Shown here: in pieces, positions 1-14,015 of the stretch | How the letters are laid out: each line of letters begins with the position of its first letter | Numbering within the stretch: the first letter of the stretch is position 1 | Origin: Cenarchaeum symbiosum A | GTDB taxonomy: Archaea > Thermoproteota > Nitrososphaeria > Nitrososphaerales > Nitrosopumilaceae | DNA length: 64,000 bases | Reading direction: 5' to 3' | NCBI GenBank assembly: GCA_000200715.1 | Contig: DP000238.1 | Span: 1,908,849-1,972,848 of the forward strand | The notes under the pieces: model-generated | Seen by the model: the letters and a program-made list of their open reading frames with translations, nothing else | What the model was told of the DNA's origin: nothing | The model's database searches: none | Program-made: the position numbers and the translations under genes

Positions 1-716
1 TTTTTCCTGGGCATTGTTCTCTTGGACCGGGGAAGCGGCCCAGCTGTGCGCGCTATGCGGGCCAGTGCGGCTGCATCGACGAACGGCGCGATTCCACGGG
101 CCACCGCCGATATGGCCCCGGGCCGCGACTCTATCGCGGGGACCAGCCCTAGGTGCCTGGAGGGAAGGGAGAAGCGCGCATCCCTGGGAATACATCCCAC
201 AACGGGGACCCCCAGGGGCTCGAGCGCATCCCTGCAGATTTTCTCGTGTCTTTTGCTGCCCAGCCTGTTCAGTATTATGCCGCGTATGCAGTGGTTCCTG
301 CGGAACCTCATAAAGCCGAGCGCCGTCGCCGCTACAGAGCGCCCCGCCCTGCTCGCGTCGAGCACCAGTACCACGGGTGCACCAAGTATTGAAGATACGT
401 GGTGCGTGCTCGATACCCCTGAGCTTCCCGCGCCGTCATAGTAGCCCATGACGCCCTCTACCAATGATATGCCGGGGCCCGAGTTTCTGACAAAGCTGTT
501 CAGGACTCCGCCCCGGCCCATGAGCCAGACGTCGAGGTTGATAGCCTCTCTGCCCGAGGCCGCCGAGAGGTGGCCGGGATCTATGTAGTCGGGCCCCACC
601 TTGAACGGCTGCACCGTATGCCCGGAGCCCGCCAGCGCGGCTATCACGCCGCAGGATACCGACGTCTTTCCGACTCCGCTAGATGAGCCGGCCAGGACCA
701 GCCTGGGTATACGCAA
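1..716 (-). CDS. cobB: Cobyrinic acid a,c-diamide synthase, C-terminus cut by window edge
   Basis: This enzyme amidates the a and c side chains of cobyrinic acid using ATP and glutamine, a corrin-ring step of cobalamin synthesis. The visible N-terminal part begins RIPRLVLAGSSSGVGKTS, a P-loop of the CobB/CobQ type, followed by FKVGPDYIDPGHL and LVEGVMGYYDG, which are typical of CobB. There is no ATG; I chose TTG at 716 because a minus-strand TATA-like box (741-750) lies about 27 bases upstream, the usual leaderless spacing here. About 238 residues are visible and the reading frame runs off the left edge, so the C-terminal glutamine amidotransferase domain cannot be checked. It is divergent from the first giant surface gene. 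cobO at 13.5 kb and the cob operon at 53.7 kb act in the same pathway. Confidence 0.88.
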   Translation of the reverse strand, partial: MRIPRLVLAGSSSGVGKTSVSCGVIAALAGSGHTVQPFKVGPDYIDPGHLSAASGREAINLDVWLMGRGGVLNSFVRNSGPGISLVEGVMGYYDGAGSSGVSSTHHVSSILGAPVVLVLDASRAGRSVAATALGFMRFRRNHCIRGIILNRLGSKRHEKICRDALEPLGVPVVGCIPRDARFSLPSRHLGLVPAIESRPGAISAVARGIAPFVDAAALARIARTAGPLPRSKRTMPRK

Positions 717-740
717 ACCGCGCGGATGGGGCCGGGCACG

Positions 741-750
741 GATTTAAACC
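741..750 (-). promoter_or_regulatory. TATA-like box of cobB
   Basis: GGTTTAAATC on the minus strand lies about 27 bases before the TTG at 716 and supports that non-ATG start as leaderless. Confidence 0.5.
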
Positions 751-784
751 AACGTGCAGGCCAAGGCACGGATTCAACCCGGAT

Positions 785-806
785 CCGTGCTTGATTTCAG
801 GCACGG
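785..806. promoter_or_regulatory. Near-perfect palindrome upstream of surface gene 1
   Basis: CCGTGC and GCACGG arms flank TTGATTTCAG, with a nearly symmetrical TTGA/TCAG core. It lies about 33 bases upstream of the TATA box. A perfect version is found at the same place before surface gene 2 (6799-6816). Two more GCACGGATT copies lie just upstream (736-744 and 766-774). A regulator site is inferred. Confidence 0.45.
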
Positions 807-837
807 ATTTGCCTTGTGTGATCCGGCATTGAATAGT

Positions 838-847
838 CTTTTAATAT
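838..847 (+). promoter_or_regulatory. TATA box of surface gene 1
   Basis: CTTTTAATAT is followed by TCTCCATTTGACAG, all conserved in the second copy (6851-6860). The spacing puts transcription start at about 871, the ATG of a 9-codon ORF, not at the signal peptide of the main gene. Confidence 0.6.
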
Positions 848-870
848 CTCCATTTGACAGGCACCATAGC

Positions 871-900
871 ATGAAAGTGACATTTTGGAGCGTATCGTGA
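871..900 (+). CDS. Putative 9-residue upstream ORF (copy 1)
   Basis: The ORF reads MKVTFWSVS then TGA. Its ATG is 27 bases from the TATA box, as expected of a leaderless message. The duplicated region before the next gene keeps an equivalent ORF, MKVAFWSVL (6882-6911), with half of the base changes silent. It is in frame with the large gene, separated by one TGA. A regulatory leader peptide is inferred; translation is not proven. Confidence 0.4.
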   Translation: MKVTFWSVS

Positions 901-951
901 CGGCAGATCCTTGTGGGACAGGCGGGCGCATGCGGCGCCAGGAGGCCCTCC

Positions 952-962
952 GGGGGGGGGGG
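952..962 (+). repeat. Homopolymeric tract of 11 G (copy 1)
   Basis: Eleven consecutive G lie 28 bases before the chosen start of surface gene 1. A tract of the same length is at the equivalent place in copy 2 (6967-6977). The ATG at 930 upstream of the tract is out of frame with the main gene now, and would come into frame with 10 G. Confidence 0.8.
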
Positions 963-990
963 CTGCACGTTGACGGTTCCGGGTAGCGGC

Positions 991-3900
991 ATGCGCGGCG
1001 TCCTGCTCGCGGTGCTGTTCATGGCCGCATTTGCCGCGGCGCCAGTCTATGCGCAGACGGTTAACCCGGATATAATGGAGGAGGCAGGTGTGTCGGAGGA
1101 TGCAGATTTGATACTAGTGCCCGCATCCCCAAAGTTCGTCAATGCCACGCTGAGCAGCGACGGCCTGCTGGAAGTAACGTTTGATGTGCCGCTAAACGAA
1201 TCCACGATAAACCATGCCAAGATAACCATCGCCGACGGGGATGCGCCGGCCGGGCGGGTGCCCCTGGTAGCCGGCGAGTTTACGCTGATCAGAAAGGACA
1301 CCATGAGCTATCAATTGACAGGGAACAAATTGGACCTGGTGTCCAGTTATACGGATCCCCGGGTGCGTATTGATATAGGAACGCTCGGGCCGGGCCTGCC
1401 CGATGTGGGATACCGGCTGCCGGATTCATTGTACCCGTACGAGCCGGATGTTGTATCCGCGGCCCCGCCCAACAACACCGAGAACTCGACGCAGGGGCTG
1501 GCGCTCTCGAGGGGCGGCACGGTAATGTTTACGGTGGGTCTGGACCGGGACACGGTATTCCGGTATGTGCTAGAACAGCCTTACGACATATCCTCGGCAA
1601 GAATTGACGGCTCGTACAACGTGAGCGGCCGGGAGGCGGACCCCCGCGGGCTGGCATTCTCCCCGGTCGGGCTCACGATGTTCGTCGCGGGAAACGACAC
1701 CATCCACCAGTATGCACTGGGATCGCAGTTTGGCTTTGTCCAGGACCCGTCGTTTGAGGGAAGCTTTAGCGTGGCCGAGGACGGCCTGGTCACGGGAATA
1801 GACTTTGGGCTGGATGGAACCAGGATGTACCTCTCGGGGGCAAACAGCAGCGCCATCCAGCAGTACGACCTGTCAAGTCCGTACGACATAACCGTCCAGC
1901 CAGTCCATGCGGGAAACTTTAGCACCATCGACCAGGATGACTCGCCCAGCGGGGTTGTAGTCTCCGATGACGGCCGCATCATGCTGGTACTCGGCCAGCA
2001 GAACGACAAGATGTACATGTACGGCATAGATACACCGCACGACATCTCCACTGCCTGGTACGCGGGCTCCCAGGATGTCCGGGTTCAGGATAACAGCCCG
2101 GAGGGTATAGCGGCATCTACCGACGGAAGGCTGATCTTTGTCACGGGTACGCAGAACAATGATGTGCACAGGTACAACCTCCGGGCGCCGTACGATGTAG
2201 CCCGGGACAGGGCGGATAGCGGGCCCACCTTCAACGTGTACAACAATCCCGACAACCAGGGCGGGCTCGGCAGGGTCCCGACGGGTATTGTATTCTCCCC
2301 TGACGGCCTGCAGATGTTCGTCTCCTCTCATGCCTTGGGCACCGTACAAGCGTACGACCTGACAGTCCCCTATTCAGTGACAACGGCTACGGCCGCAGAC
2401 TCTTATGCCACGGCCTTTGACCCGCCCCTCACCCGCGATCGCCCCTTTGACGTGGAATTCTCCGCCGACGGCCTCTGGATGTTCAACACCGGGCGTGAGG
2501 GACAAAACTTGTACTCGTATACGCTGGACACCCCGTACAACATAACATCGGCCATGCGGAATGGCACGTACGACATAGAGACGTCGGCGCAGGCGGCCGT
2601 GGTATTCAACCCCGAAGGGACCATAATGCTGCTTGCAGTGGAAACCCCGGGCTCTATACAGGAATACAGCCTTCCCAACCCGTTTAACATATCCGGCGCC
2701 GTGGCGGCCCCGTTCAGCATAGGGGACGGGCTTAGCCCGGTGGGGCTTGAATATTCGTCCGACGGGCACAGGCTCTTCATCATGGATAACACCGAGGTGG
2801 TGCACAGGTATGACCTTTTAACGCCGTATACGCTGAGGGACTCACTGTTTATAGACACTGAGGTGTTCAACAGCGATGCCCAAACCAACGATATAACATT
2901 CTCCGGCGACGGCAGAAAGCTGTTCATTGCCGGAGGCCAGGGCCACAACATAGTGACGTACAACCTGACATCCCCCTACGACATAACCTCGTCCGCCCGC
3001 AGCACGGCTCTCTTGGTGGAGACCAGCTCTAATCCCACTCCGAGTGATGTATCCGTGAGCAATGACGGCAGATCGGTGCTTGTATTCAACAACCTACGGG
3101 ACAGGGTATCCGACTACACCTTGCTCCAGCCGTACGACCTGTCCACCCGGGGACAACAGGCCGAATCGCCCGCGGCCGCCAACAACAATGTAAACGCGAT
3201 GGAGTTTTCATCCAATGGGACGCTGATGTTCTTGGCTGGATGGACCGCACCCGCTGCCGGCGATAATCCGGATAATATTGCAGGCCGGGAGATTCATACA
3301 TACAACCTGAGCACGGCATTTGACACGACCACGGCCCAGCTTATAGGCAGCTTTATCACCGGCAGCGTGACAAACCCGCTGCCGAGCGAGCCACGGGGCG
3401 AGCCGGCAGACAAGTCGATAAGCAGCCCCTCGGCAATGAGGTTCTCGCCGGACGGGATGGACCTGTTTATAATTGACGAGATCGAAAGAGCAATACATCA
3501 CTTTAACCTGAGCAGCCCGTATTTAGTTGACAACACGACTGCCTATGTAGAATCCCTTGACGTCGAGAACAGGGATAGCAACCCCTCCGGGTTGGCATTA
3601 TCTGCAGATGGCAAGAGGATGTTCATCACGGGGGCCAATAGGGATGCCATACAAAGATACGATATGGATATCGCGCACAACCTTTCGACCGCCGTATATT
3701 CGGGATTGATCAGCGTGGGGCGCCTCGAGAACCAGCCCCGGGGGATTGCATTTTCAGAGGACGGCTCGAGGCTGTTCTTTACCGGGGAGCAGAGGGATCG
3801 GGTATACCTGCTTGATCTGGCGGGCCCCGAGACCATCCTTGTAGAGCCCCCGCTGAGCGACCTCCGGATTGAGATAGAGGCAACAGACGCCCCCGTGCAC

Positions 3901-6735
3901 TCCGATAAAGTGGAGGGGCAGCCCGAGGTGGCAATCGCCGTCGACGCGCCCTCTGTCATTTCCACTGCGAGCTCCATGATAGGATCCCGGATGCACAACG
4001 CATCAGTCCCCGATACGCCGATGCTCTCTGATGATCATACGTTGGCCCTCACGCGCATAGTGGCCGTCCTCGACGAGATCATGCTCTCTGATACTCCCCG
4101 GGTGGACACCATGTATGTCCTGCCAGCCTCCGACGCGGCCTCGTTCTCTGATATGTCCACCGCGTTGATCACGGGAGTGCCCCAGGTGCACGACCGGCCA
4201 GCCTCCGACGCGCCCTCATTCTCTGACATATCCACCGCGTTAGTTACGATAGTGCCCCAGGTGCACGACCGGCCAGCCTCCGACGCGCCCTCATTCTCTG
4301 ACATATCCACCGCGTTAGTTACGATAGTGCCCCAGGTGCACGACCGGCCAGCCTCCGACGCGCCCTCATTCTCTGAAATGTCCACCGCGTTGATCACGGG
4401 AGTGCCCCAGGTGCACGACCGGCCAGCCTCCGACGCGCCCTCATTCTCTGAAATGTCCACCGCGTTGATCACGGGAGTGCCCCAGGTGCACGACCGGCCA
4501 GCCTCCGACGCGCCCTCATTCTCTGACATGTCCACCGCGTTAGTTACGGTGGCATCCGTAATGCACGACCTGCCCGTCTCCGACGCGCCTGTTCTATCGG
4601 AGTTGGCGGCCTCTGTCATAAAACACGACCTTCCGGCCTCCGACGCGCCTGTTCTATCGGAGTTGGCGGCCTCCGACCTGACCACGGTCCCTAGGGTGCT
4701 GTCGGTCTCGGCCCCCTCTTCTATACAGATGGCAAACGGCACAGTCGAGATAACGGTAGAATTCAGCGAGCCGGTAAACGTGACAGGCGTCCCGCTGCTC
4801 AGGCTTGACGTGGGCGCAAATGCCACATTTGCAGCTGGTATGAACACCTCCAACGTAAACTTTAGCTATACGGTGGCCGCGGGCCACAACTCGGCCGACC
4901 TGTCCTATGAGGGCACAAACGCGCTGGTATTAGGCAACGGCAGCATAACGTCGGCCGATGACGGGGCGCCCGCAGACCTGACACTGCCGCAGCCCGGCTC
5001 TAACTCGTCACTGTCGGGCAGCTCAAACGTTACAATAGATACCGTGATTCCCTCGGTAGACAGCATACTGGCCACGGGGAATTACACCCTTGTGGCCACA
5101 ATCAGCGAGCCGCTTGACATCATCCCCATGAATACAACACTGGTAAGAAACGGGTCATTTACCAGCAATCCCATGGTGGAGATAGTGGCTGGCAGCAACC
5201 TGCTCATAACCACAAACCACACGCTCTTTGCACAGAACATCACGGTCCAGTTTACAAACATGACAGACCCCGCGGGGAACAGGCTTGAGATGTACGAGTA
5301 CAACCTTACCGATGACGACACGGCCCTGCGTGACAACAGGGTGGTAGTCATAGATGATTCTAACAACACGCTTGTAATACACGACGGGATAAATGATATG
5401 GTCAGTATCGATGATCAAACAGAGAACAATCCGCTCATACTGAACCTTGAGGGGGTAAGTCCCAACAGTACCAGCGCAATACTTCCCTCGGATATAACGG
5501 TCACCCGGGGAAATACCACCCTTATGCTGCCGATAAACCTGACCCTGTCGGGATTCAATGGAATGCAGCAGATAATCATACAGGATTCAACCAAGGATCC
5601 CCCTGTCGTGAACGGCGACCCCCGGGAGACATCCGTGGAGGTGGGACTGCCTGATGTGGACCTCAGGCTGAGTGTGCCGGTCCGGATCGACCTAGTCGGA
5701 GAGCCAGGAGATCAGGGATACCGCATAGACTCGATGGGCATGACCATACCGATAGATCGCTGCGATGGGAACAACCCCCCTGCGCAGCCGCTCCAGCAAG
5801 CCGACGACGGCGCCTGCCTGTTCAATACCGGTAACGTCTTTACAATATGGACGTACAATCTCGACACATTCGGTCTGTTCACACCCGCACCCGAGACCGA
5901 TTCCTCGCTGACACCAGCACCGCTGCCGCGCAGGGGCGGCGGCGGTGGCGGCGGAGGAGGAGGCGGCGGCTCCATACTCAGCGGCACGGGCTTTGGATAT
6001 GATGCCTCATTCGGGTTCTCTTCCGGCGGGCAGGATGCACTGTCCGGCTCCACCATACGCCTCAACCCAAGCAACACACTGGTTGTGACCCCGGCGCTCA
6101 CCGGGGCCTCCGACCTGGCCATATTTGAGATGGAGATGATCTTTACGGGGGCCGACGGCGGAACGGCCAGTGTATACTACAACAGGCTGGGCTCGTTCGT
6201 CGGACAGCAGTGCCCCGTAGGGCCGGTGGTATCCGGGGAGGTGAGCACCTGCGATGTGTCATCCGTGCTTGAGGACGCGGCGGTGCCGGTCCTCGTGGGC
6301 GGCACACTCGAGAGCATTGTCATGTCGTTGGAGGGGGAGTTTGCCGGCACAATGAGCATCATGCTCCGCGACAACCAGGGGATAACCCTTGCCACGCACG
6401 ACCGCGACAAGTTCAGCATAAGCACCGGGGATGCGGCCGCCGGAGTGCGCGGACCAGGGCCGGACGCCGGCACGGGGCCCGTGGACGCCGGGCCTGACGG
6501 AACAACCCGCGCAGAGCCTGAGCCCCGCGCAGAACGCGAGCCGGAGCCCCGTGCAGAGCCTGAGCCCCGCGAGATTCGGGAACCATCCGAAATCCCGGAC
6601 GACAGATCTATGGACGGGGAGCTGCCAGGTGAACCATCCGCACCGGCAGACGGGGAGCCCGCGCCGGCAGACGCCCCCGAAAGAAACTTCTTTGATGTAA
6701 TAGGCGATTTCCTAAGGTCCCTGTTCAGGTTCTGA
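991..6735 (+). CDS. Giant secreted beta-propeller surface protein, paralogue 1
   Basis: Secreted surface protein of 1914 residues; its molecular function is unknown. The start at 991 begins a clean signal peptide (MRGVLLAVLFMAAFAAAPVYA); TTG 970 and GTG 913 are in-frame alternatives. Residues about 167-943 carry about 15 repeats of the form G-x-x-F-S-x-D-G-x-x-M-F-V-x-G-x(5)-I-x-x-Y-x-L-x-x-PYDI, resembling YVTN/WD-type propeller blades and enough for two propellers. Six 25-residue units (core ASDAPSFSD) follow at 1043-1192, then Ig-like modules at about 1230-1450. A run of 12 glycines after PLPRR (about 1650) precedes a conserved C-terminal domain, a Glu/Pro/Arg-rich tail and a final FFDVIGDFLRSLFRF. 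Many N-x-S/T sites suggest glycosylation. It is the tandem paralogue of the next gene: both ends are alike and the repeat regions differ. No catalytic motif is seen. Confidence 0.85.
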   Translation: MRGVLLAVLFMAAFAAAPVYAQTVNPDIMEEAGVSEDADLILVPASPKFVNATLSSDGLLEVTFDVPLNESTINHAKITIADGDAPAGRVPLVAGEFTLIRKDTMSYQLTGNKLDLVSSYTDPRVRIDIGTLGPGLPDVGYRLPDSLYPYEPDVVSAAPPNNTENSTQGLALSRGGTVMFTVGLDRDTVFRYVLEQPYDISSARIDGSYNVSGREADPRGLAFSPVGLTMFVAGNDTIHQYALGSQFGFVQDPSFEGSFSVAEDGLVTGIDFGLDGTRMYLSGANSSAIQQYDLSSPYDITVQPVHAGNFSTIDQDDSPSGVVVSDDGRIMLVLGQQNDKMYMYGIDTPHDISTAWYAGSQDVRVQDNSPEGIAASTDGRLIFVTGTQNNDVHRYNLRAPYDVARDRADSGPTFNVYNNPDNQGGLGRVPTGIVFSPDGLQMFVSSHALGTVQAYDLTVPYSVTTATAADSYATAFDPPLTRDRPFDVEFSADGLWMFNTGREGQNLYSYTLDTPYNITSAMRNGTYDIETSAQAAVVFNPEGTIMLLAVETPGSIQEYSLPNPFNISGAVAAPFSIGDGLSPVGLEYSSDGHRLFIMDNTEVVHRYDLLTPYTLRDSLFIDTEVFNSDAQTNDITFSGDGRKLFIAGGQGHNIVTYNLTSPYDITSSARSTALLVETSSNPTPSDVSVSNDGRSVLVFNNLRDRVSDYTLLQPYDLSTRGQQAESPAAANNNVNAMEFSSNGTLMFLAGWTAPAAGDNPDNIAGREIHTYNLSTAFDTTTAQLIGSFITGSVTNPLPSEPRGEPADKSISSPSAMRFSPDGMDLFIIDEIERAIHHFNLSSPYLVDNTTAYVESLDVENRDSNPSGLALSADGKRMFITGANRDAIQRYDMDIAHNLSTAVYSGLISVGRLENQPRGIAFSEDGSRLFFTGEQRDRVYLLDLAGPETILVEPPLSDLRIEIEATDAPVHSDKVEGQPEVAIAVDAPSVISTASSMIGSRMHNASVPDTPMLSDDHTLALTRIVAVLDEIMLSDTPRVDTMYVLPASDAASFSDMSTALITGVPQVHDRPASDAPSFSDISTALVTIVPQVHDRPASDAPSFSDISTALVTIVPQVHDRPASDAPSFSEMSTALITGVPQVHDRPASDAPSFSEMSTALITGVPQVHDRPASDAPSFSDMSTALVTVASVMHDLPVSDAPVLSELAASVIKHDLPASDAPVLSELAASDLTTVPRVLSVSAPSSIQMANGTVEITVEFSEPVNVTGVPLLRLDVGANATFAAGMNTSNVNFSYTVAAGHNSADLSYEGTNALVLGNGSITSADDGAPADLTLPQPGSNSSLSGSSNVTIDTVIPSVDSILATGNYTLVATISEPLDIIPMNTTLVRNGSFTSNPMVEIVAGSNLLITTNHTLFAQNITVQFTNMTDPAGNRLEMYEYNLTDDDTALRDNRVVVIDDSNNTLVIHDGINDMVSIDDQTENNPLILNLEGVSPNSTSAILPSDITVTRGNTTLMLPINLTLSGFNGMQQIIIQDSTKDPPVVNGDPRETSVEVGLPDVDLRLSVPVRIDLVGEPGDQGYRIDSMGMTIPIDRCDGNNPPAQPLQQADDGACLFNTGNVFTIWTYNLDTFGLFTPAPETDSSLTPAPLPRRGGGGGGGGGGGGSILSGTGFGYDASFGFSSGGQDALSGSTIRLNPSNTLVVTPALTGASDLAIFEMEMIFTGADGGTASVYYNRLGSFVGQQCPVGPVVSGEVSTCDVSSVLEDAAVPVLVGGTLESIVMSLEGEFAGTMSIMLRDNQGITLATHDRDKFSISTGDAAAGVRGPGPDAGTGPVDAGPDGTTRAEPEPRAEREPEPRAEPEPREIREPSEIPDDRSMDGELPGEPSAPADGEPAPADAPERNFFDVIGDFLRSLFRF
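4117..4566 (+). repeat. Six 75-bp tandem repeats within surface gene 1
   Basis: Units start at 4117, 4192, 4267, 4342, 4417 and 4492, and each encodes 25 residues with the core ASDAPSFSD and ending VPQVH. Central units are nearly identical in DNA, which points to recent duplication or gene conversion. The same period recurs in surface gene 2 at 10794-11243. Confidence 0.85.
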
Positions 6736-6798
6736 CCGGGGTTTGCGGGCAGAGCCTGCATTGCATAACTCGAGGCCAAAGCACGAATTCGGTTCAGG

Positions 6799-6816
6799 GT
6801 GCCTGATTTCAGGCAC
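6799..6816. promoter_or_regulatory. Perfect palindrome upstream of surface gene 2
   Basis: GTGCCTGATTTCAGGCAC has 8-base arms around TT and lies about 35 bases upstream of the TATA box. It matches the site at 785-806 and resembles the ones at 17319-17333 and 43766-43795. Confidence 0.5.
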
Positions 6817-6850
6817 GGAATTACTCTTGGGCGATCCGGCTCTGAATAGT

Positions 6851-6860
6851 CTTTAATATC
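6851..6860 (+). promoter_or_regulatory. TATA box of surface gene 2
   Basis: CTTTAATATC with flanks matching copy 1. It is about 27 bases before the ATG of the upstream mini-ORF at 6882. Confidence 0.6.
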
Positions 6861-6881
6861 TCCATTTGACAGAATGATGGC

Positions 6882-6911
6882 ATGAAAGTTGCATTTTGGA
6901 GTGTATTATGA
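6882..6911 (+). CDS. Putative 9-residue upstream ORF (copy 2)
   Basis: MKVAFWSVL then TGA, the counterpart of 871-900. It is in frame with the main gene across a single stop. Its conservation next to a duplicated promoter suggests a leader peptide or coupling element; this is inference. Confidence 0.4.
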   Translation: MKVAFWSVL

Positions 6912-6966
6912 CGGCAGATCCTTGGGGGACAGGCGGGCGCATGCAGCGCCACGGGGAGGCCCTGCC

Positions 6967-6977
6967 GGGGGGGGGGG
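6967..6977 (+). repeat. Homopolymeric tract of 11 G (copy 2)
   Basis: Eleven G lie 9 bases before the ATG at 6987. The upstream ATG 6941 reads through the tract and stops at 6998-7000. With 10 G it would read into the signal peptide, the same behaviour as copy 1. Confidence 0.8.
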
Positions 6978-6986
6978 CATCCGTTG

Positions 6987-9900
6987 ATGGTTCTGGGTAA
7001 TGTAGTGCGCGGCGCACTGCTTGCGGTGCTGTTCATGGCTGCACTGGCCGCGGCTCCTGCCTATGCGCAGGAGGGGCCCGGGGTGGGGGAGAATGTTGGC
7101 TTGGGGGTGACGCGCGCATCCCCGCAGTTCGTTAATGCCACGCTGGACGCCGACGGCGTGCTGAAAATAACGTTCGACCGGCCGCTAACCACCTACACGA
7201 TAAACCACGACCTGATAACCATCACCGACGGGCTCTCTCCGGCCGGGAAGATACCCTTGCTCGCCGGAGAGTTTGCGCTGGTTGATGGGAGCGTTCAGGC
7301 GGATACCACCCTGCAGTATACACTGAGCGGTAACAAACGGGACCTGGTGTCCAGCTACGCGGATCCCCGGGTGCGGATTGATATCGGGTCTCTCGGGCCG
7401 GGCCTTCCCGCCGTCGGATACCGGCTGCCGGAGTCGCTGTACCCGTACGAGCCGGATGTTGTATCCGCGGCCCTGCCCAACAACACCGAGGGAGCGCATC
7501 AGGGACTGGCGTTCTCGAGGGACGGCACGGTGATGTTCACGGTGGGAACCCAACTGGACACGGTGTTCCGGTATGTGCTCGATCAGCCCCACGACATATC
7601 ATCGGCAAGAATTGAAGGAAACTACAGCGTGGGCGACCGGGAGGATAACCCACGCGGACTGGCATTCTCCCCGGACGGGCTCAAGATGTTCGTCGTGGGA
7701 AACGACACGGTGCACCAGTATGCACTGGGCTCGCAGTTTGGCTTCAGCTCCGCCCCGTCGTTCGAGCATAACTTTAGTGTGGCCGAGGACGTCCTGCTCA
7801 CGGGAATAGACTTTGGGAATAACGGCAACAGGATGTACCTCTCGGGTGAAAACAACAGCGCCATCCAGCAGTACGACCTCTCCGAAGCGTACGATATAGA
7901 AGTGCAGCCCGTCCATGCAGGGAACTTTAGCACCGCCGGCCAGTATGACTCGCCCCGCGGGGTAATAGTCTCCGGCGACGGCCGCATCATGCTGGTACTG
8001 GGCCAGCCGGACGACAAGGTGTTCATGTACGGGATGGACGCGCCGCACGATATATCCACCGCAGGGTATGTGGGCTCCCACGAGATCACAAACTCGGAGC
8101 GCAACCCGGAGGGAATAGCGGCGTCGGACGACGGAAGGCTGATCTTTGTCACGGGCACTGTGACCAACAGTGTGTTCAGGTACAATCTCGGGGCGCCGTA
8201 CGATGCCGCCCGGGATGGGGCGGGGGCCGGGCCCACCCTGGACGGCATCCCCGGGGCCACTACGGGGATTGTATTTTCCCCTGACGGCCTGCAGATGTTC
8301 CTCTCCCCCCATAGTTCAGATACCGTAGATGCATACAACCTGACAGTCCCCTATGGCGTAGCTACGGCCACACCTGCAGACTCTTTTGATCTTAATCCCA
8401 TTCCCACGGGGGACAGCGGCCGCAATCGTCCCTTTGATGTGGAATTTTCCGCGGATGGCCTCTTGATGTTTATCACTGGGCGTAACCCCGTAGAGCTGTA
8501 TTCGTATACGCTGGATGCGCCGTACAACATATCATCGGCCGAGTATAATAGCTCGTACGCGATAACGATAGCGTCGAATAATGATCCGACGGCTGTGATA
8601 TTCGACCCCACCGGGACCATCATGCTGCTTGCAGCGGGACCCCGCGGAGGCGGCATCATACAGGAATACAACCTCCCCAGCCCGTACAACATATCCGGCG
8701 CCGTGGCGGCACCGTTCAACATAACGGACGGGCTGATCCCGCTGGGGATTACATACTCGTCAGACGGGCACAGGCTCTTCGTCATGGATGACCGCGAGGT
8801 GATGCACAGGTACGACCTTCTGACGCCATACAGCCTGAGGGATGCCCTGTTTGTGGACTCCCGTAAATTCACCGAAGGTGCCCAGCCCAACGATTTGGAG
8901 TTCTCCGGTGACGGCAGAAAGATGTTCATAGTCTGGGGCAACCGTCAGGCGATAGAGACGTACAACCTGACAGCCCCCTACGACATAACCTCGTCTGCCA
9001 GCCCCGTGTCCCTTTCAGTGGACACCGGCTCTCCCACACCGAGCGACATCTCCGTGAGCACAGACGGCAGGACAGTGCTTGTATTCAACAACATACGGGA
9101 CGCGGTCATTGGGCACAGCCTGCGCCAGCCGTACGACCTGTCCACATCCGCTTCATCGGTCCAATCGGCCGCTGCCGACAACACCAATGTAAATGCGATG
9201 GACTTTTCACCCAACGGTACGCTGATGTTCCTGTCGGGATGGACCCCGACCACCGGAGTCTCCACGGGCCGGACTGTCTATACGTACAACCTGAGCGCCC
9301 CGTTTGACGTATCCACGATCCAGCGCATAGGCGAGTTTCACACCCGGGATGCGGTAAATGCGCTGACGGGAGACGCCGGTATAAGCAGCCCCTCGGCAAT
9401 GAGGTTCTCGGCCAACGGGACGGACCTGTACATAATAGACGAGATCGACCGCTCCATACACCACTACAACCTGAGCAGCCCGTACCTGCTTGACAATACG
9501 ACTGCCTATGTGGAATCCCTAAATGTCAATAATAGGGATAGCAACCCCTCCGGGCTTGAATTATCAGCCGACGGCAAGAGGCTGTTCATCTCGGGGGCCG
9601 GCAGTGACCACATACGCAGGTACGACATGGGCATAGCGTACAACCTTTCCACCGCCGAGCATTCGGGATCGATCAACGCGGGCAGGCTCGACAGCCAGTC
9701 CCGTGGGATTGCATTTTCAGAGGACGGCTCTAGATTGTTCTTTGTAGGGGATGATACGGATCGGGTATACCTGCTTGATCTGGCGGCCCCCGAGGTCATC
9801 AGCGTACAGGCCCTGCCGAGCAACCTCCGGATTGCGATAGAAGCCTCCGACACGCCCGTGCACTCCGATGGCGTGACACGGTCTGGAGTGCACGAAGCAG

Positions 9901-12900
9901 ACGCCATCGACGCGCTCCTGCCCTCTGATCTCGCTACGGCTATCCCGCCCCGGATACACGACATAGCAGTCTCCGACGCGCTCATCTTCTCTGATGTTCC
10001 CGGGGCGGTCCGCGTGCCTGTAGACCACGAAGCAATCGCCATCGACGAGCTCCTGCCCTCCGATGGCGGCCTTGCAAACCACGTGGTCGTATCCCAGCTG
10101 AGCACCGTGGCCGTCTCCGACGCGCTCATCTTCTCTGATGTTCCCGGGGCGGTCCGCGTGCCTGTAGACCACGAAGCAATCGCCATCGACGCGCTCCTGC
10201 CCTCCGATGGCGGCCTTGCAAACCACGTGGTCGTATCCCAGCTGAGCACCGTGGCCGTCTCCGACGCGCTCATGTTCTCTGATGTTACCGGGGCGGTCCG
10301 CGTGCCGGTAGAGCACGAAGCAATCGCCATCGACGCGCTCCTGCCCTCCGATGGCGGACTTGCAAACCACGTGGTCGTATCCCAGCTGAGCACCGTGGCT
10401 GTCTCCGACGCGCTCATGTTCTCTGATGTTCCCGGGGCGGTCCGCGTGCCGGTAGAGCACGAAGCAATCGCCATAGAGACGCCCCTGCACTCTGATGATT
10501 CCATGGCGCCCCTGTCGAATAACATAAACGTCTCCGACGCGCCCGGGCACCTTGAACATATCGGGGGAGATCTCATGGACACAGGCATGTCGATCAATGG
10601 AATCGACAGGTTCATGTTCAAAGAGAATCAGGCCTTCACGGGCTTGCCGTTGAGGATAAACGCTGCTGATATGCCCGCTATCATCTCAGGTGCGGACAGC
10701 ACGGTCAGGTCCCAGTTGCACAACTCATCTGCCTCCGACGCGCCTTTGCTCTCTGACGCTTACCGGCTGGACCTCATGCGCATTGTGATTGTCTCCGACG
10801 CGCCCTCGGTGCTTGATCCCGCCACTGCGAACCTCGAGGGATCGCCCACGGTTCACAAGTTGACTGCCTCCGACGCGCCCCCACTGCTTGATCCTGCCAC
10901 TTTGTTCGTCGTGGGAACGCCCCGGGTTCACAACTTGACTGCCTCCGACGTGCTCCCGCTGCTTGATCCTGCCACTTTGTTCGTCGTGGGAACGCCCCGG
11001 GTTCACAACTTGACTATCTCCGACGCGCCCCCGCTGCTTGATCCCGCCACTGCGAACCGCATGGGGAGCCCACAGATGCTCACTCGAACAGGCACAGACG
11101 CGCCCTCGGTACGTGATCCCGCCACTGCGTTCCTCAAGGGACCGCCCACGGTTCACAACTTGACTGCCTCCGACGCGCCCTCCGTGCTTGATCCTGCCAA
11201 TACAGAGCTTGTGGTGCCACCAACGTACGAACAGACCGTCTCCGACGAGCCCGCCGTATCGGACTCGGGGGACTCTGTCTCAATTCCGGTGGTGCTGTCG
11301 GTCTCGGCCGAATCTGCCGCGGTAAGGGAGAACGGGACGGTTTCCATAACGGTCACATTCAGCGAGGCTGTAAATGTGGCGGGGACTCCGATGCTCGGGC
11401 TTGACGTGGGTGCGAATGCCAATTATACAACGGGCTCGGGCACCCCCAACTTGGTCTTCAGCTATACGGTGGCCGCGGATCACAACTCGGCCGGCCTCTC
11501 CTATGCGGGGACAGATGCTCTCGTGGCCGAAGACGGCAACATAACGGCAGTAAGCGACGGGGATCTTGCCGACCTCACGCTGCCGGAGCCCGGCTCTGGC
11601 TCATCACTGTCGGGCAGCTCAAGCGTTGTAATAGATACCGAACAGCCCTCGATAGTGCGCATACTGGCTACGGGGATTGACACACTGGTGGCCACCATCA
11701 ACGAGCCGCTCGTCATTACCCCCATGAACATAACACTGGAGATAAACGGATCAAGTGCCAACGTGACCAATGTAACGGTGGTGCCGGGCAACAACCTGCT
11801 CATAACCACCGACGCGGATCTCCCGGACACACTGAACATCACGGTCCGGCTTGCAAACGTGACAGACCCCGCAGGGAATCCGCCTGCGATGGGTGACTAC
11901 AATCTCACCATGAACGACAAGGCGCTGCTTGGTGACCGGTCGGTGGACATAACTGATGAGAGCAACCTGCTCGTAATACATGATAGGATGCCCGATGAGA
12001 TCCTTGTAGGGGATGGGACAACACTGAACACTCCACTCATACTGTATCTTGGACTAGAAAATACCAGCGAGACTGACGTGTCACTTCCCTCGAATATAAC
12101 GGTCACCAGCAGGGGAATCACGATTATGCTGCCGAAAAACCTGAACCTGTCAGGATTCAATGACACACAGCAGATAATCATAGACGAGTCAGATAGGGAG
12201 TTCCGTGACGAAGAAGGCGTTCCCCGGGGCATGCCCGTTGAGGTGGGCCTGCTAAACGTGGACCTTCGGCTGGACCCGCCGATCCGGATCAACCTGGTCG
12301 GGGAGCCTGGAGACCTGGGATACCGCATAAACTCGACGAGCAACTTTACAGTGATAGATGACGAGTGCACCGAGAACAGCGCCGCCGGGGCGGCTGCCCA
12401 GAAAGCTGCTGGCGGAGCCTGCCTGTTCAGTGACGGCAACGACTTTACAATATGGACGCACAGACTCTCCACGTACGGCCTGTTCACGCCACCCTCCGTG
12501 CCTGATCCCGGAACCGGTTCCGGGCTTACACCAGCACCACTGCCGCGCAGGGGCGGCGGTGGCGGCGGCGGAGGAGGGGGCGGCGGCTCTGTACTCGGCG
12601 GCACGGGCTTTGGATATGATGCCAGCTTTGAGTTCTCCCTGGACGGGGAGAATGTACTGAGGGGCTCCTCCATACGCCTCCCACCAGGTAACACACTGGT
12701 CGTGGCCCCTGTTCTCACCGGGGACTCCGGCCAGGCAGTCTTTGACATGGAGATTCTCTTCAATGGGGCCGACGGCAGCACGTCCAGCGTATACTACAAC
12801 AGGCTGGGCGCGTTCTTTGGACAGCAGTGCGCCGTCGAGCCCATAACATCCGGGATGGTGAGCACCTGCGATGAATCGTCCATAATTGCGGACGCGGCGG

Positions 12901-13346
12901 TGCCGGCCTTTGTGGGCGGCGCACTCGAGAGCATCGCCGTGCCGCTGGAGGGCGAGTTCACCGGCACAGTCAGCATACTGCTCCGTGACAACCAGGGGAT
13001 AACCCTTGCCACACACGACAACGACAAGTTCAGTATTAACACCGTGGGCACTGCCCCCGACACGCGCGGCCCCGCAGGGCCGGATGCCGGCGCCCCCGGC
13101 ACTGGCCCCGGAGAGCCGGAAGACGCAGGAATTGGCGGAACAACACGCGCAGAACCTGAGCCCCGCACGGAGCCCGGGCAGGAGCCCCGCGCAGAGCCCG
13201 GTGACTCCCGGGATCCCGCCGGAATCCCGGACGGCGGATCCATGGGGGAGCCGGTAGATGCCGAGCCTGCCGCACCGGCAGACCCCTCCAGAAACTTATT
13301 CGAGATCATAGGCGACCTTCTAAGGTCCCTGTTCGGGTTCTCTTGA
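6987..13346 (+). CDS. Giant secreted beta-propeller surface protein, paralogue 2
   Basis: Secreted protein of 2119 residues, paralogous to the preceding gene. The ATG at 6987 begins MVLGNVVRGALLAVLFMAAL and leads to a signal peptide ending AYAQ; GTG 7005 aligns with the ATG of paralogue 1 and is an alternative start. Blade-like repeats with the same YDL-x-x-PYDI periodicity fill residues about 171-933. They are followed by three full 48-residue repeats (about 1015-1160), a different linker, a second array of 25-residue repeats (core TASDAP-LLDPAT, about 1270-1420), Ig-like modules, the conserved 12-glycine tract (about 1855), a C-terminal domain close to that of paralogue 1, a Glu/Pro/Arg/Gly-rich tail and a final LFEIIGDLLRSLFGF. 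The shared ends with diverged middles suggest repeat shuffling after duplication. Function unknown; an S-layer-associated or host-contact role is plausible. Confidence 0.85.
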   Translation: MVLGNVVRGALLAVLFMAALAAAPAYAQEGPGVGENVGLGVTRASPQFVNATLDADGVLKITFDRPLTTYTINHDLITITDGLSPAGKIPLLAGEFALVDGSVQADTTLQYTLSGNKRDLVSSYADPRVRIDIGSLGPGLPAVGYRLPESLYPYEPDVVSAALPNNTEGAHQGLAFSRDGTVMFTVGTQLDTVFRYVLDQPHDISSARIEGNYSVGDREDNPRGLAFSPDGLKMFVVGNDTVHQYALGSQFGFSSAPSFEHNFSVAEDVLLTGIDFGNNGNRMYLSGENNSAIQQYDLSEAYDIEVQPVHAGNFSTAGQYDSPRGVIVSGDGRIMLVLGQPDDKVFMYGMDAPHDISTAGYVGSHEITNSERNPEGIAASDDGRLIFVTGTVTNSVFRYNLGAPYDAARDGAGAGPTLDGIPGATTGIVFSPDGLQMFLSPHSSDTVDAYNLTVPYGVATATPADSFDLNPIPTGDSGRNRPFDVEFSADGLLMFITGRNPVELYSYTLDAPYNISSAEYNSSYAITIASNNDPTAVIFDPTGTIMLLAAGPRGGGIIQEYNLPSPYNISGAVAAPFNITDGLIPLGITYSSDGHRLFVMDDREVMHRYDLLTPYSLRDALFVDSRKFTEGAQPNDLEFSGDGRKMFIVWGNRQAIETYNLTAPYDITSSASPVSLSVDTGSPTPSDISVSTDGRTVLVFNNIRDAVIGHSLRQPYDLSTSASSVQSAAADNTNVNAMDFSPNGTLMFLSGWTPTTGVSTGRTVYTYNLSAPFDVSTIQRIGEFHTRDAVNALTGDAGISSPSAMRFSANGTDLYIIDEIDRSIHHYNLSSPYLLDNTTAYVESLNVNNRDSNPSGLELSADGKRLFISGAGSDHIRRYDMGIAYNLSTAEHSGSINAGRLDSQSRGIAFSEDGSRLFFVGDDTDRVYLLDLAAPEVISVQALPSNLRIAIEASDTPVHSDGVTRSGVHEADAIDALLPSDLATAIPPRIHDIAVSDALIFSDVPGAVRVPVDHEAIAIDELLPSDGGLANHVVVSQLSTVAVSDALIFSDVPGAVRVPVDHEAIAIDALLPSDGGLANHVVVSQLSTVAVSDALMFSDVTGAVRVPVEHEAIAIDALLPSDGGLANHVVVSQLSTVAVSDALMFSDVPGAVRVPVEHEAIAIETPLHSDDSMAPLSNNINVSDAPGHLEHIGGDLMDTGMSINGIDRFMFKENQAFTGLPLRINAADMPAIISGADSTVRSQLHNSSASDAPLLSDAYRLDLMRIVIVSDAPSVLDPATANLEGSPTVHKLTASDAPPLLDPATLFVVGTPRVHNLTASDVLPLLDPATLFVVGTPRVHNLTISDAPPLLDPATANRMGSPQMLTRTGTDAPSVRDPATAFLKGPPTVHNLTASDAPSVLDPANTELVVPPTYEQTVSDEPAVSDSGDSVSIPVVLSVSAESAAVRENGTVSITVTFSEAVNVAGTPMLGLDVGANANYTTGSGTPNLVFSYTVAADHNSAGLSYAGTDALVAEDGNITAVSDGDLADLTLPEPGSGSSLSGSSSVVIDTEQPSIVRILATGIDTLVATINEPLVITPMNITLEINGSSANVTNVTVVPGNNLLITTDADLPDTLNITVRLANVTDPAGNPPAMGDYNLTMNDKALLGDRSVDITDESNLLVIHDRMPDEILVGDGTTLNTPLILYLGLENTSETDVSLPSNITVTSRGITIMLPKNLNLSGFNDTQQIIIDESDREFRDEEGVPRGMPVEVGLLNVDLRLDPPIRINLVGEPGDLGYRINSTSNFTVIDDECTENSAAGAAAQKAAGGACLFSDGNDFTIWTHRLSTYGLFTPPSVPDPGTGSGLTPAPLPRRGGGGGGGGGGGGSVLGGTGFGYDASFEFSLDGENVLRGSSIRLPPGNTLVVAPVLTGDSGQAVFDMEILFNGADGSTSSVYYNRLGAFFGQQCAVEPITSGMVSTCDESSIIADAAVPAFVGGALESIAVPLEGEFTGTVSILLRDNQGITLATHDNDKFSINTVGTAPDTRGPAGPDAGAPGTGPGEPEDAGIGGTTRAEPEPRTEPGQEPRAEPGDSRDPAGIPDGGSMGEPVDAEPAAPADPSRNLFEIIGDLLRSLFGFS
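10032..10463 (+). repeat. Three 144-bp tandem repeats within surface gene 2
   Basis: Units start at 10032, 10176 and 10320, with a partial unit from 10464. Each encodes 48 residues including AIAIDALLPSDGGL, VAVSDAL-FSDV and GAVRVPV-HE. DNA identity between units is very high. This array is absent from paralogue 1. Confidence 0.85.
10794..11243 (+). repeat. 75-bp period repeat array within surface gene 2
   Basis: The TCCGACG-like core recurs at 10794, 10869, 10944, 11019, 11094 and 11169, exactly 75 bases apart. It encodes 25-residue units with the core SDAP, then LLDPAT or VLDPAT. It has the same period and core as the array in paralogue 1 but is more diverged. Confidence 0.75.
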
Positions 13347-13484: not shown

Positions 13485-14015
13485 ATGGGGGACGGCCTGG
13501 TAATAGTGTACACTGGGGGCGGCAAGGGCAAGACCACTGCTGCGCTCGGCATGGCATTGAGGGCCGCAGGATACGGGCACAAGACCTGCATGGTGCAGTT
13601 CATCAAGGGGTCGTGGCATTACGGGGAGAGGGATTCTGCTGCAATGCTGGGAGAATCGCTTGAGCTGATAGTCGCGGGCAAGGGCTTTGTTGGCATAATG
13701 GACGACAGCAGCCCGCGCAAGGAGCATGTAGAGGCGGCGCGCGGCGCGCTCAGGATCAGCAGGGAAAAGATCACATCCGACAAATACGAAACAGTCATCC
13801 TCGACGAGATAAACTATGCCGTCGACTTGGGCCTGATAACCACAGAGGATGTGCTCGGCCTGATAGGGGAGAGGCCCCCACGCCTCAACCTGGTCCTGAC
13901 TGGAAACCACGCAAGGCCCGAGATAGTAGAGGCGGCCGACCTTGTCACAGAGATGAAAGAGGTCAAGCACCCGTACAGGTCCGGAAGGCGGGCCGCCCGG
14001 GGCGTCGACTTCTAA
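13485..14015 (+). CDS. cobO: Cob(I)alamin adenosyltransferase
   Basis: It transfers the 5'-deoxyadenosyl group of ATP to reduced corrinoid, giving the adenosyl form used downstream in cobalamin assembly. At 176 residues it has the usual length of the BtuR/CobO family, with an N-terminal P-loop (VYTGGGKGKTTAALGMALR, residues 7-25), VQFIKGSWHYGE, a Walker-B-like VILDEINYAVD (about residue 104) and LTGNHARPEIVEAADLVTEM near the C-terminus. It stands alone between the surface genes and aIF2 alpha. Its partners are cobB at the left edge and the cob operon at 53.7-57.8 kb. Confidence 0.93.
   Translation: MGDGLVIVYTGGGKGKTTAALGMALRAAGYGHKTCMVQFIKGSWHYGERDSAAMLGESLELIVAGKGFVGIMDDSSPRKEHVEAARGALRISREKITSDKYETVILDEINYAVDLGLITTEDVLGLIGERPPRLNLVLTGNHARPEIVEAADLVTEMKEVKHPYRSGRRAARGVDF

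Follow-up and report, generated by a model that had tools for sequence, protein, structure and literature searches.

Giant propeller proteins of Cenarchaeum symbiosum A and a possible slippage-prone switch at the 5' ends of their genes

Described systems closest to the gene pair

Phase variation by homopolymers is typical of bacteria adapted to a host. In Campylobacter, Neisseria and Helicobacter, G/C homopolymers of ~10–17 bases are located in the promoters, leaders or 5' coding sequences of genes for surface proteins and glycans (PMC6321876, PMC5084427). Orsi et al. 2010 (PMC2831843) report no shift of poly-C/G tracts towards the 5' ends of genes, and a 2025 review (PMC11868660) treats phase variation in archaea as a matter for later study. 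No report of homopolymer phase variation in C. symbiosum or in archaea was found in the open-licence literature, which is weak evidence of absence, and slipped-strand phase variation of a surface repertoire is apparently undescribed in archaea. As for the proteins, Moeller et al. 2019 (PMC6790972) note an S-layer group that is expanded in Ca. N. ianthellae as well as in C. symbiosum, and propose that it acts in adhesion; the family expansion described below is therefore partly known. The propeller architecture, the C-terminal module and the poly-G tracts go beyond what their passages on this group describe.

The two giant proteins studied here resemble 1l0q, the Methanosarcina mazei surface-layer protein with a YVTN-type beta-propeller (Jing et al. 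2002), in being exported archaeal proteins with propeller repeats, export being judged from the signal peptide. They differ from it in having two propellers' worth of blades, Ig-like and repeat regions as putative spacers and a family-specific C-terminal module. To the SGL (PF08450) and Lactonase (PF10282) families they are alike at the level of repeats only; the pair consists of giant multidomain proteins for which enzyme activity is not indicated by the sequence. With the phase-variable genes of Campylobacter, Neisseria and Helicobacter their genes share a G/C tract at the 5' end; in those bacteria a frame change decides on the full-length protein, and here it may do so. Unlike in those bacteria, the organism is an archaeon with TATA promoters, the targets are giant propeller proteins, and length variation and switching are putative.

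The gene pair and its family of giant exported proteins

The genome of Cenarchaeum symbiosum A, a symbiont of the sponge Axinella mexicana, is a single contig of 2,045,086 bases. The window, that is, the whole stretch of 64,000 nucleotides that was analysed, corresponds to bases 1,908,849–1,972,848. GC content is 58% over the stretches read, with a published value of 57.3% (PMC7565180). The pair has the following features:

991..6735, + strand: giant secreted propeller protein 1, 1,914 codons (ORF and Pfam search)
roughly 1450–3770, + strand: region of protein 1 homologous to the propeller of protein 2 (homology)
4037..4673, + strand: 75-nt (25-residue) repeat array, gene 1 (repeat analysis)
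5935..5970, + strand: 12-glycine tract, protein 1, mixed GGN codons (sequence)
6682–6732, + strand: C-terminal amphipathic helix, protein 1 counterpart (alignments)
6987..13346, + strand: giant secreted propeller protein 2, 2,119 codons, alternative start GTG 7005 (ORF and Pfam search)
7458..9779, + strand: ~15 predicted propeller blades, protein 2 (AlphaFold2, Foldseek, profile match to 1l0q)
9883..10497, + strand: 144-nt (48-residue) repeat array, gene 2 (repeat analysis)
10700..11264, + strand: 75-nt (25-residue) repeat array, gene 2 (repeat analysis)
12552..12587, + strand: 12-glycine tract, protein 2, mixed GGN codons (sequence)
12618..13049, + strand: family-specific C-terminal beta domain, protein 2, with two conserved cysteines (pLDDT ~90, alignments)
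13290..13343, + strand: C-terminal amphipathic helix FEIIGDLLRSLFGFS after a disordered Glu/Pro linker, protein 2 (alignments, predicted structure)

Both ORFs, read from ATG 991 and ATG 6987, lie where an earlier note on this DNA had placed them, and the signal peptide, Ig-like modules, 12-glycine tract and charged tail that it had listed are present in both proteins. The hydrophobic N-termini (MRGVLLAVLFMAAFAAAPVYAQ in protein 1, VRGALLAVLFMAALAAAPAYAQ in protein 2) end in A-x-A-Q and were judged by inspection of the sequence to be export signals; Ig-like regions, glycine tract, C-terminal beta domain and acidic tail are common to the two. The glycine tract was considered as a DNA homopolymer and rejected as such because of its mixed codons; G runs in the window do not exceed 7, the two 11-G tracts aside. 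Identity between the proteins is ~68% in the N-terminal domain, the propeller region and the C-terminal domain, and it falls to 60% over the Ig region and 44% over the arrays; the synonymous sites of the genes are ~66% identical. The dN/dS ratio between the genes (0.46–0.64 outside the arrays, 0.78 within them) is consistent with a maintained function of the pair. The central arrays do differ, as the earlier note had claimed, both in unit size and in copy number: gene 1 carries ~7 near-identical copies of its 75-nt unit, and gene 2 carries ~4 copies of the 144-nt unit and ~6 of a diverged 75-nt unit.

The pair is flanked by apparent cobalamin genes, a CbiA-like amidase gene recognised by motif (window 1–712, − strand) and a cobalamin adenosyltransferase-like gene (13485–14015, + strand), which are ordinary neighbours.

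AlphaFold2, given an alignment of 14 paralogue sequences, modelled the propeller region of protein 2 with a pLDDT of 79.8 and a pTM of 0.78. In the model, an N-terminal beta domain is followed by 59 strands forming ~15 four-stranded blades (residues ~158–931). A Foldseek search of this model against the PDB gave 1,323 matches at E ≤0.001 (best E 1.3e-25), the best 50 of which are WD40-type or LRP-type multi-propeller proteins with global TM-scores of ~0.2, low values that are expected if ring orientations differ. The best sequence-profile relative with a solved structure is 1l0q (E 3.8e-14). A tandem beta-propeller fold is thus supported by the modelling, and a split of the rings into 7 and 8 blades would be our guess. 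The ~15 propeller-like repeats of the earlier note are borne out by these predictions; the two 7-bladed propellers that it had put up for checking are supported as propeller folds, but the predicted blade number does not exactly fit a 2 × 7 arrangement. Matches to SGL and Lactonase above the gathering score are present in both proteins and represent single repeats scattered across the blades. A propeller of FG-GAP/integrin type was rejected, as PF01839 has no match in the genome.

When protein 2 was used as a query against the genome, a large set of paralogues was retrieved, which after collection and re-calling amounts to ~37 ORFs. Counted between stops, they add up to 109,460 codons, equal to ~328 kb and to ~16% of the 2.045-Mb genome, the largest being 12,016, 10,048, 7,622 and 6,886 codons long. 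The tandem pair that the earlier note had treated as a system is real, but its scale was underestimated, the pair being two of these ~37 genes. The closest relative of the protein 2 propeller lies inside the 10,048-codon ORF (82% identity, versus 68% for the tandem neighbour, protein 1), suggesting that domain exchange between loci is likely. The 12,016-codon ORF (768747–804797) has a likely N-terminal part in another frame just upstream (764062–768948), and the two joined would encode ~13,600 residues. Frame breaks inside four giant members (683563, 768747, 875183 and 533070) were considered as switches and rejected, since none lies at a long homopolymer; those at 683563, 875183 and 533070 represent decay or sequencing errors. 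An anti-phage defence reading was likewise discarded, PADLOC giving no match. A profile scan of 84,980 GTDB species confirmed no relative, although records near the window's own genome were possibly left out of it; other relatives, in family-level genomes, have only single domains in common with the proteins.

Nearly all intact members of the family close with the same elements in the same order: the Gly tract, then a beta domain (~145 residues), a Glu/Pro linker that is disordered and, last, an amphipathic helix of FFRSLFG-like sequence. The beta domain has two invariant cysteines and is predicted with a pLDDT of ~90. A degenerate DNA pattern for FFRSLFG had ten matches genome-wide, all ten at ends of family members, and none with the reversed control. 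The comparison with other thaumarchaeal genomes proposed in the earlier note places the module in this genome alone among 200 family-level genomes: it is absent from 198 of the 199 relatives, and the remaining one has the tail only. The latter, G010 of genus g10, encodes a Glu/Pro linker with a WFRSLFGG tail (...EPEAEEFESIFDAIINWFRSLFGG; C63:29982–30131) in a protein cut by the contig edge, which suggests that the C-terminal signal may be older than the family expansion. No relative of the module with a solved structure was found. We infer that the module is a surface-retention or sorting signal. Of the surface function put forward in the earlier note, propeller and export are supported by the structure prediction, the profile match to 1l0q, the signal peptides and the C-terminal module; the notion of an expandable adhesin or host-contact system may be called plausible.

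G/C tracts in the duplicated control region and elsewhere

The region upstream of both genes is duplicated and contains the following features:

758..990, + strand: control region, copy 1 (genome search, global alignment)
839..847, + strand: TATA-like box TTTTAATAT, copy 1 (read from sequence, conserved between copies; putative function)
871..900, + strand: 9-codon upstream ORF, MKVTFWSVS and stop, copy 1 (sequence; putatively translated)
897..986, + strand: 29-codon ORF from a GGAG-preceded GTG across the G tract, ending in TAG 4 nt before ATG 991 (frame analysis)
952..962, + strand: 11-G homopolymer, copy 1 (sequence, genome run count)
6773..6986, + strand: control region, copy 2 (genome search, global alignment)
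6852..6859, + strand: TATA-like box TTTAATAT, copy 2 (read from sequence; putative function)
6882..6911, + strand: 9-codon upstream ORF, MKVAFWSVL and stop, copy 2 (sequence; putatively translated)
6908..7000, + strand: 30-codon ORF from a GGAG-preceded ATG across the G tract, ending in TAA 4 nt before GTG 7005 (frame analysis)
6967..6977, + strand: 11-G homopolymer, copy 2 (sequence, genome run count)

The upstream duplication of ~250 bases claimed in the earlier note is real. In the genome search the copies are 82% identical over 243 nt, and exactly two copies exist genome-wide; in a global alignment 206 of 243 positions are identical (85%), and the score of 288 compares with at most 50 among 300 shuffles. 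Since this identity exceeds that at the synonymous sites of the genes, the control region is under constraint. Its reading as a family-wide promoter was rejected because the sequence is found only twice in the genome. As a 'duplicated control region' the earlier note thus had the duplication right and overlooked its key part, the poly-G tract.

In each copy the ATG of the upstream ORF, MKV(T/A)FWSV(S/L), lies ~27 nt downstream of the TATA-like box, and in copy 1 this ORF is possibly leaderless. The stop of the upstream ORF is overlapped by the GGAG-preceded GTG or ATG, from which the reading frame passes through the 11-G run that precedes the signal peptide. Read from this start, 11 Gs lead to a stop, and 10 or 13 Gs bring the whole giant protein into frame, in both copies. 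The frame consequence of tract length in the window pair depends on the start codon used, and translation may start at 991, 6987 or 7005 regardless of tract length. The copies differ by a +1 indel ahead of the tract and a −1 behind it, which cancel out and keep the frame relation, an outcome with a chance of ~1 in 3 by luck.

Across the genome, G/C runs of exactly 8, 9, 10, 11, 12 and 13 bases number 10, 1, 2, 5, 6 and 3, respectively, plus one of 17. Runs of at least 11 bases total 15, versus ~0.16 expected when the decay at lengths 5–7 is extrapolated; a first-order Markov model expects more long runs than this extrapolation, but also overpredicts runs of 8 to 10. Seven of the 17 runs of at least 10 bases are located at 5' ends of the giant-protein family (genome positions 405709, 503350, 598936, 839948 and 1387616, and the window pair). 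This enrichment has a binomial P of 2e-8 against a background of noncoding sequence only, or 4e-7 with the pair counted once. As both G and C occur on the sense strand and the positions differ, several origins of the tracts are needed. In the paralogue at 839948, a C13 immediately follows a TATA-like box. At 503350, the signal peptide reads into a C12 and stops a few codons later, while a propeller body of 1,362 residues is open in another frame; by frame analysis, C11 or C14 would join the two. The paralogue at 892179 has a short G run only, where the one at 1387544, with the same signal peptide, has 12. At 1765713, in a gene for a secreted protein outside the giant family, an in-frame G10 comes immediately after the signal peptide. 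The loci at 503350 and 1765713 are textbook examples, in which the reading frame makes the effect of a length change clear.

An independent case comes from another genome. A 3,198-codon propeller gene on contig C37 of G010, which belongs to another genus, has a G11 directly after a TATA-like box, and two further tracts in that genome precede signal-peptide genes (3 of 8 in all, against 9% in the control). Outside G010 and C. symbiosum A (G000), tracts at signal-peptide genes are close to the background rate (3 of 30, with one locus counted twice among the three). A genome of the same genus, G001 (3.17 Mb, 70.6% GC), contains hundreds of G/C runs of at least 11 bases, mostly intergenic by a crude gene call, reflecting either a lineage-wide tendency to slippage or a sequencing artefact. 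The strong concentration on surface genes is seen in G000 only, and the general slippage tendency elsewhere is the main weakness of a switching interpretation.

Proposed phase switching and competing explanations

We consider it somewhat more probable than not that the pair are members of a family of ~37 giant exported surface proteins with slippage-prone 5' G/C tract switches. The beta-propeller domains would serve for display, with the Ig-like regions and the 25- and 48-residue repeats as spacers, and the Gly hinge, beta domain, acidic linker and amphipathic FFRSLFG helix would most likely hold the proteins at the cell surface. A G or C homopolymer of 11–17 bases at the 5' end, present in the pair and five other members, would act as the switch. 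The tract of the pair is placed between a Shine–Dalgarno-like start and the signal peptide, so that added or lost bases could decide if the giant protein is made at all and, if so, which version of it. One other member has its tract inside the coding sequence, immediately behind the signal peptide, and a further one has it immediately downstream of a TATA-like box. Cells within one population might then carry differing sets of surface proteins. Of this account, the sequence establishes the family with its architecture, the tracts with their enrichment and what they do to the frame; anchoring at the surface, slippage of the tracts, switching of expression and contact with the sponge are the interpretive part. 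On the broader proposition, that this is archaeal phase variation of a giant propeller surface repertoire and that the Glu/Pro linker with the FFRSLFG helix is a new C-terminal sorting signal, we are evenly divided. If it is true, symbionts of early-branching animals are under pressure to vary their surface, be it from host immunity, phagocytosis by sponge cells or viruses.

Part of the same evidence would also fit an expanded surface family whose G tracts are neutral slippage products of a GC-rich lineage, harmless in 5' leaders and switching nothing. The abundant, mostly intergenic runs of G001, the rarity of tracts in coding sequence of G000 (1 of 17 in one count) and the near-background link to exported proteins beyond G000 and G010 all point that way. 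We nevertheless hold neutrality to be unlikely, though by a good deal the least unlikely of the alternatives, because the tracts of G000 concentrate on one gene family, both window copies retain the 11-G run though ~1/3 of synonymous sites differ, and two coding sequences have their tract immediately behind the signal peptide, a place in which slippage is bound to disrupt the protein. The proteins could, on the other hand, be exported and not displayed, being released lactonase-like enzymes or matrix components whose arrays and tail have another role. Pfam matches above cut-off in both proteins favour such enzymes, but their scatter as single repeats over the blades, the surface-layer protein as best profile relative of solved structure and the common terminal helix closing nearly all intact members make this improbable. 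Slightly more improbable still are errors of assembly or base calling in the tract lengths, which would make the frame switches artefactual and the genes constitutively expressed: homopolymers of 11–17 are hard to call, the C12 gene at 503350 is out of frame as assembled and four giant genes have other frame breaks, yet a wrong length cannot create a tract, and the 15 long tracts comprise both G and C on the sense strand, are kept in two diverged copies and have a counterpart in another genus.

Further tracts of the genome touch other genes. A second family, of small secreted proteins with a YGMAE motif (1681320–1681997 and 1765152–1765865), has a G11 one base before the ATG in the former and the in-frame G10 after the signal peptide in the latter. 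The set of tract targets resembles bacterial phase-variable repertoires. A G12 at 1049891–1049902 lies at the end of a glycosyltransferase-like gene that immediately precedes a WecB-like epimerase gene, and another at 1061485–1061496 lies inside a methyltransferase-like gene, names that we take from recognised motifs; surface glycans might possibly be switchable through these two tracts.
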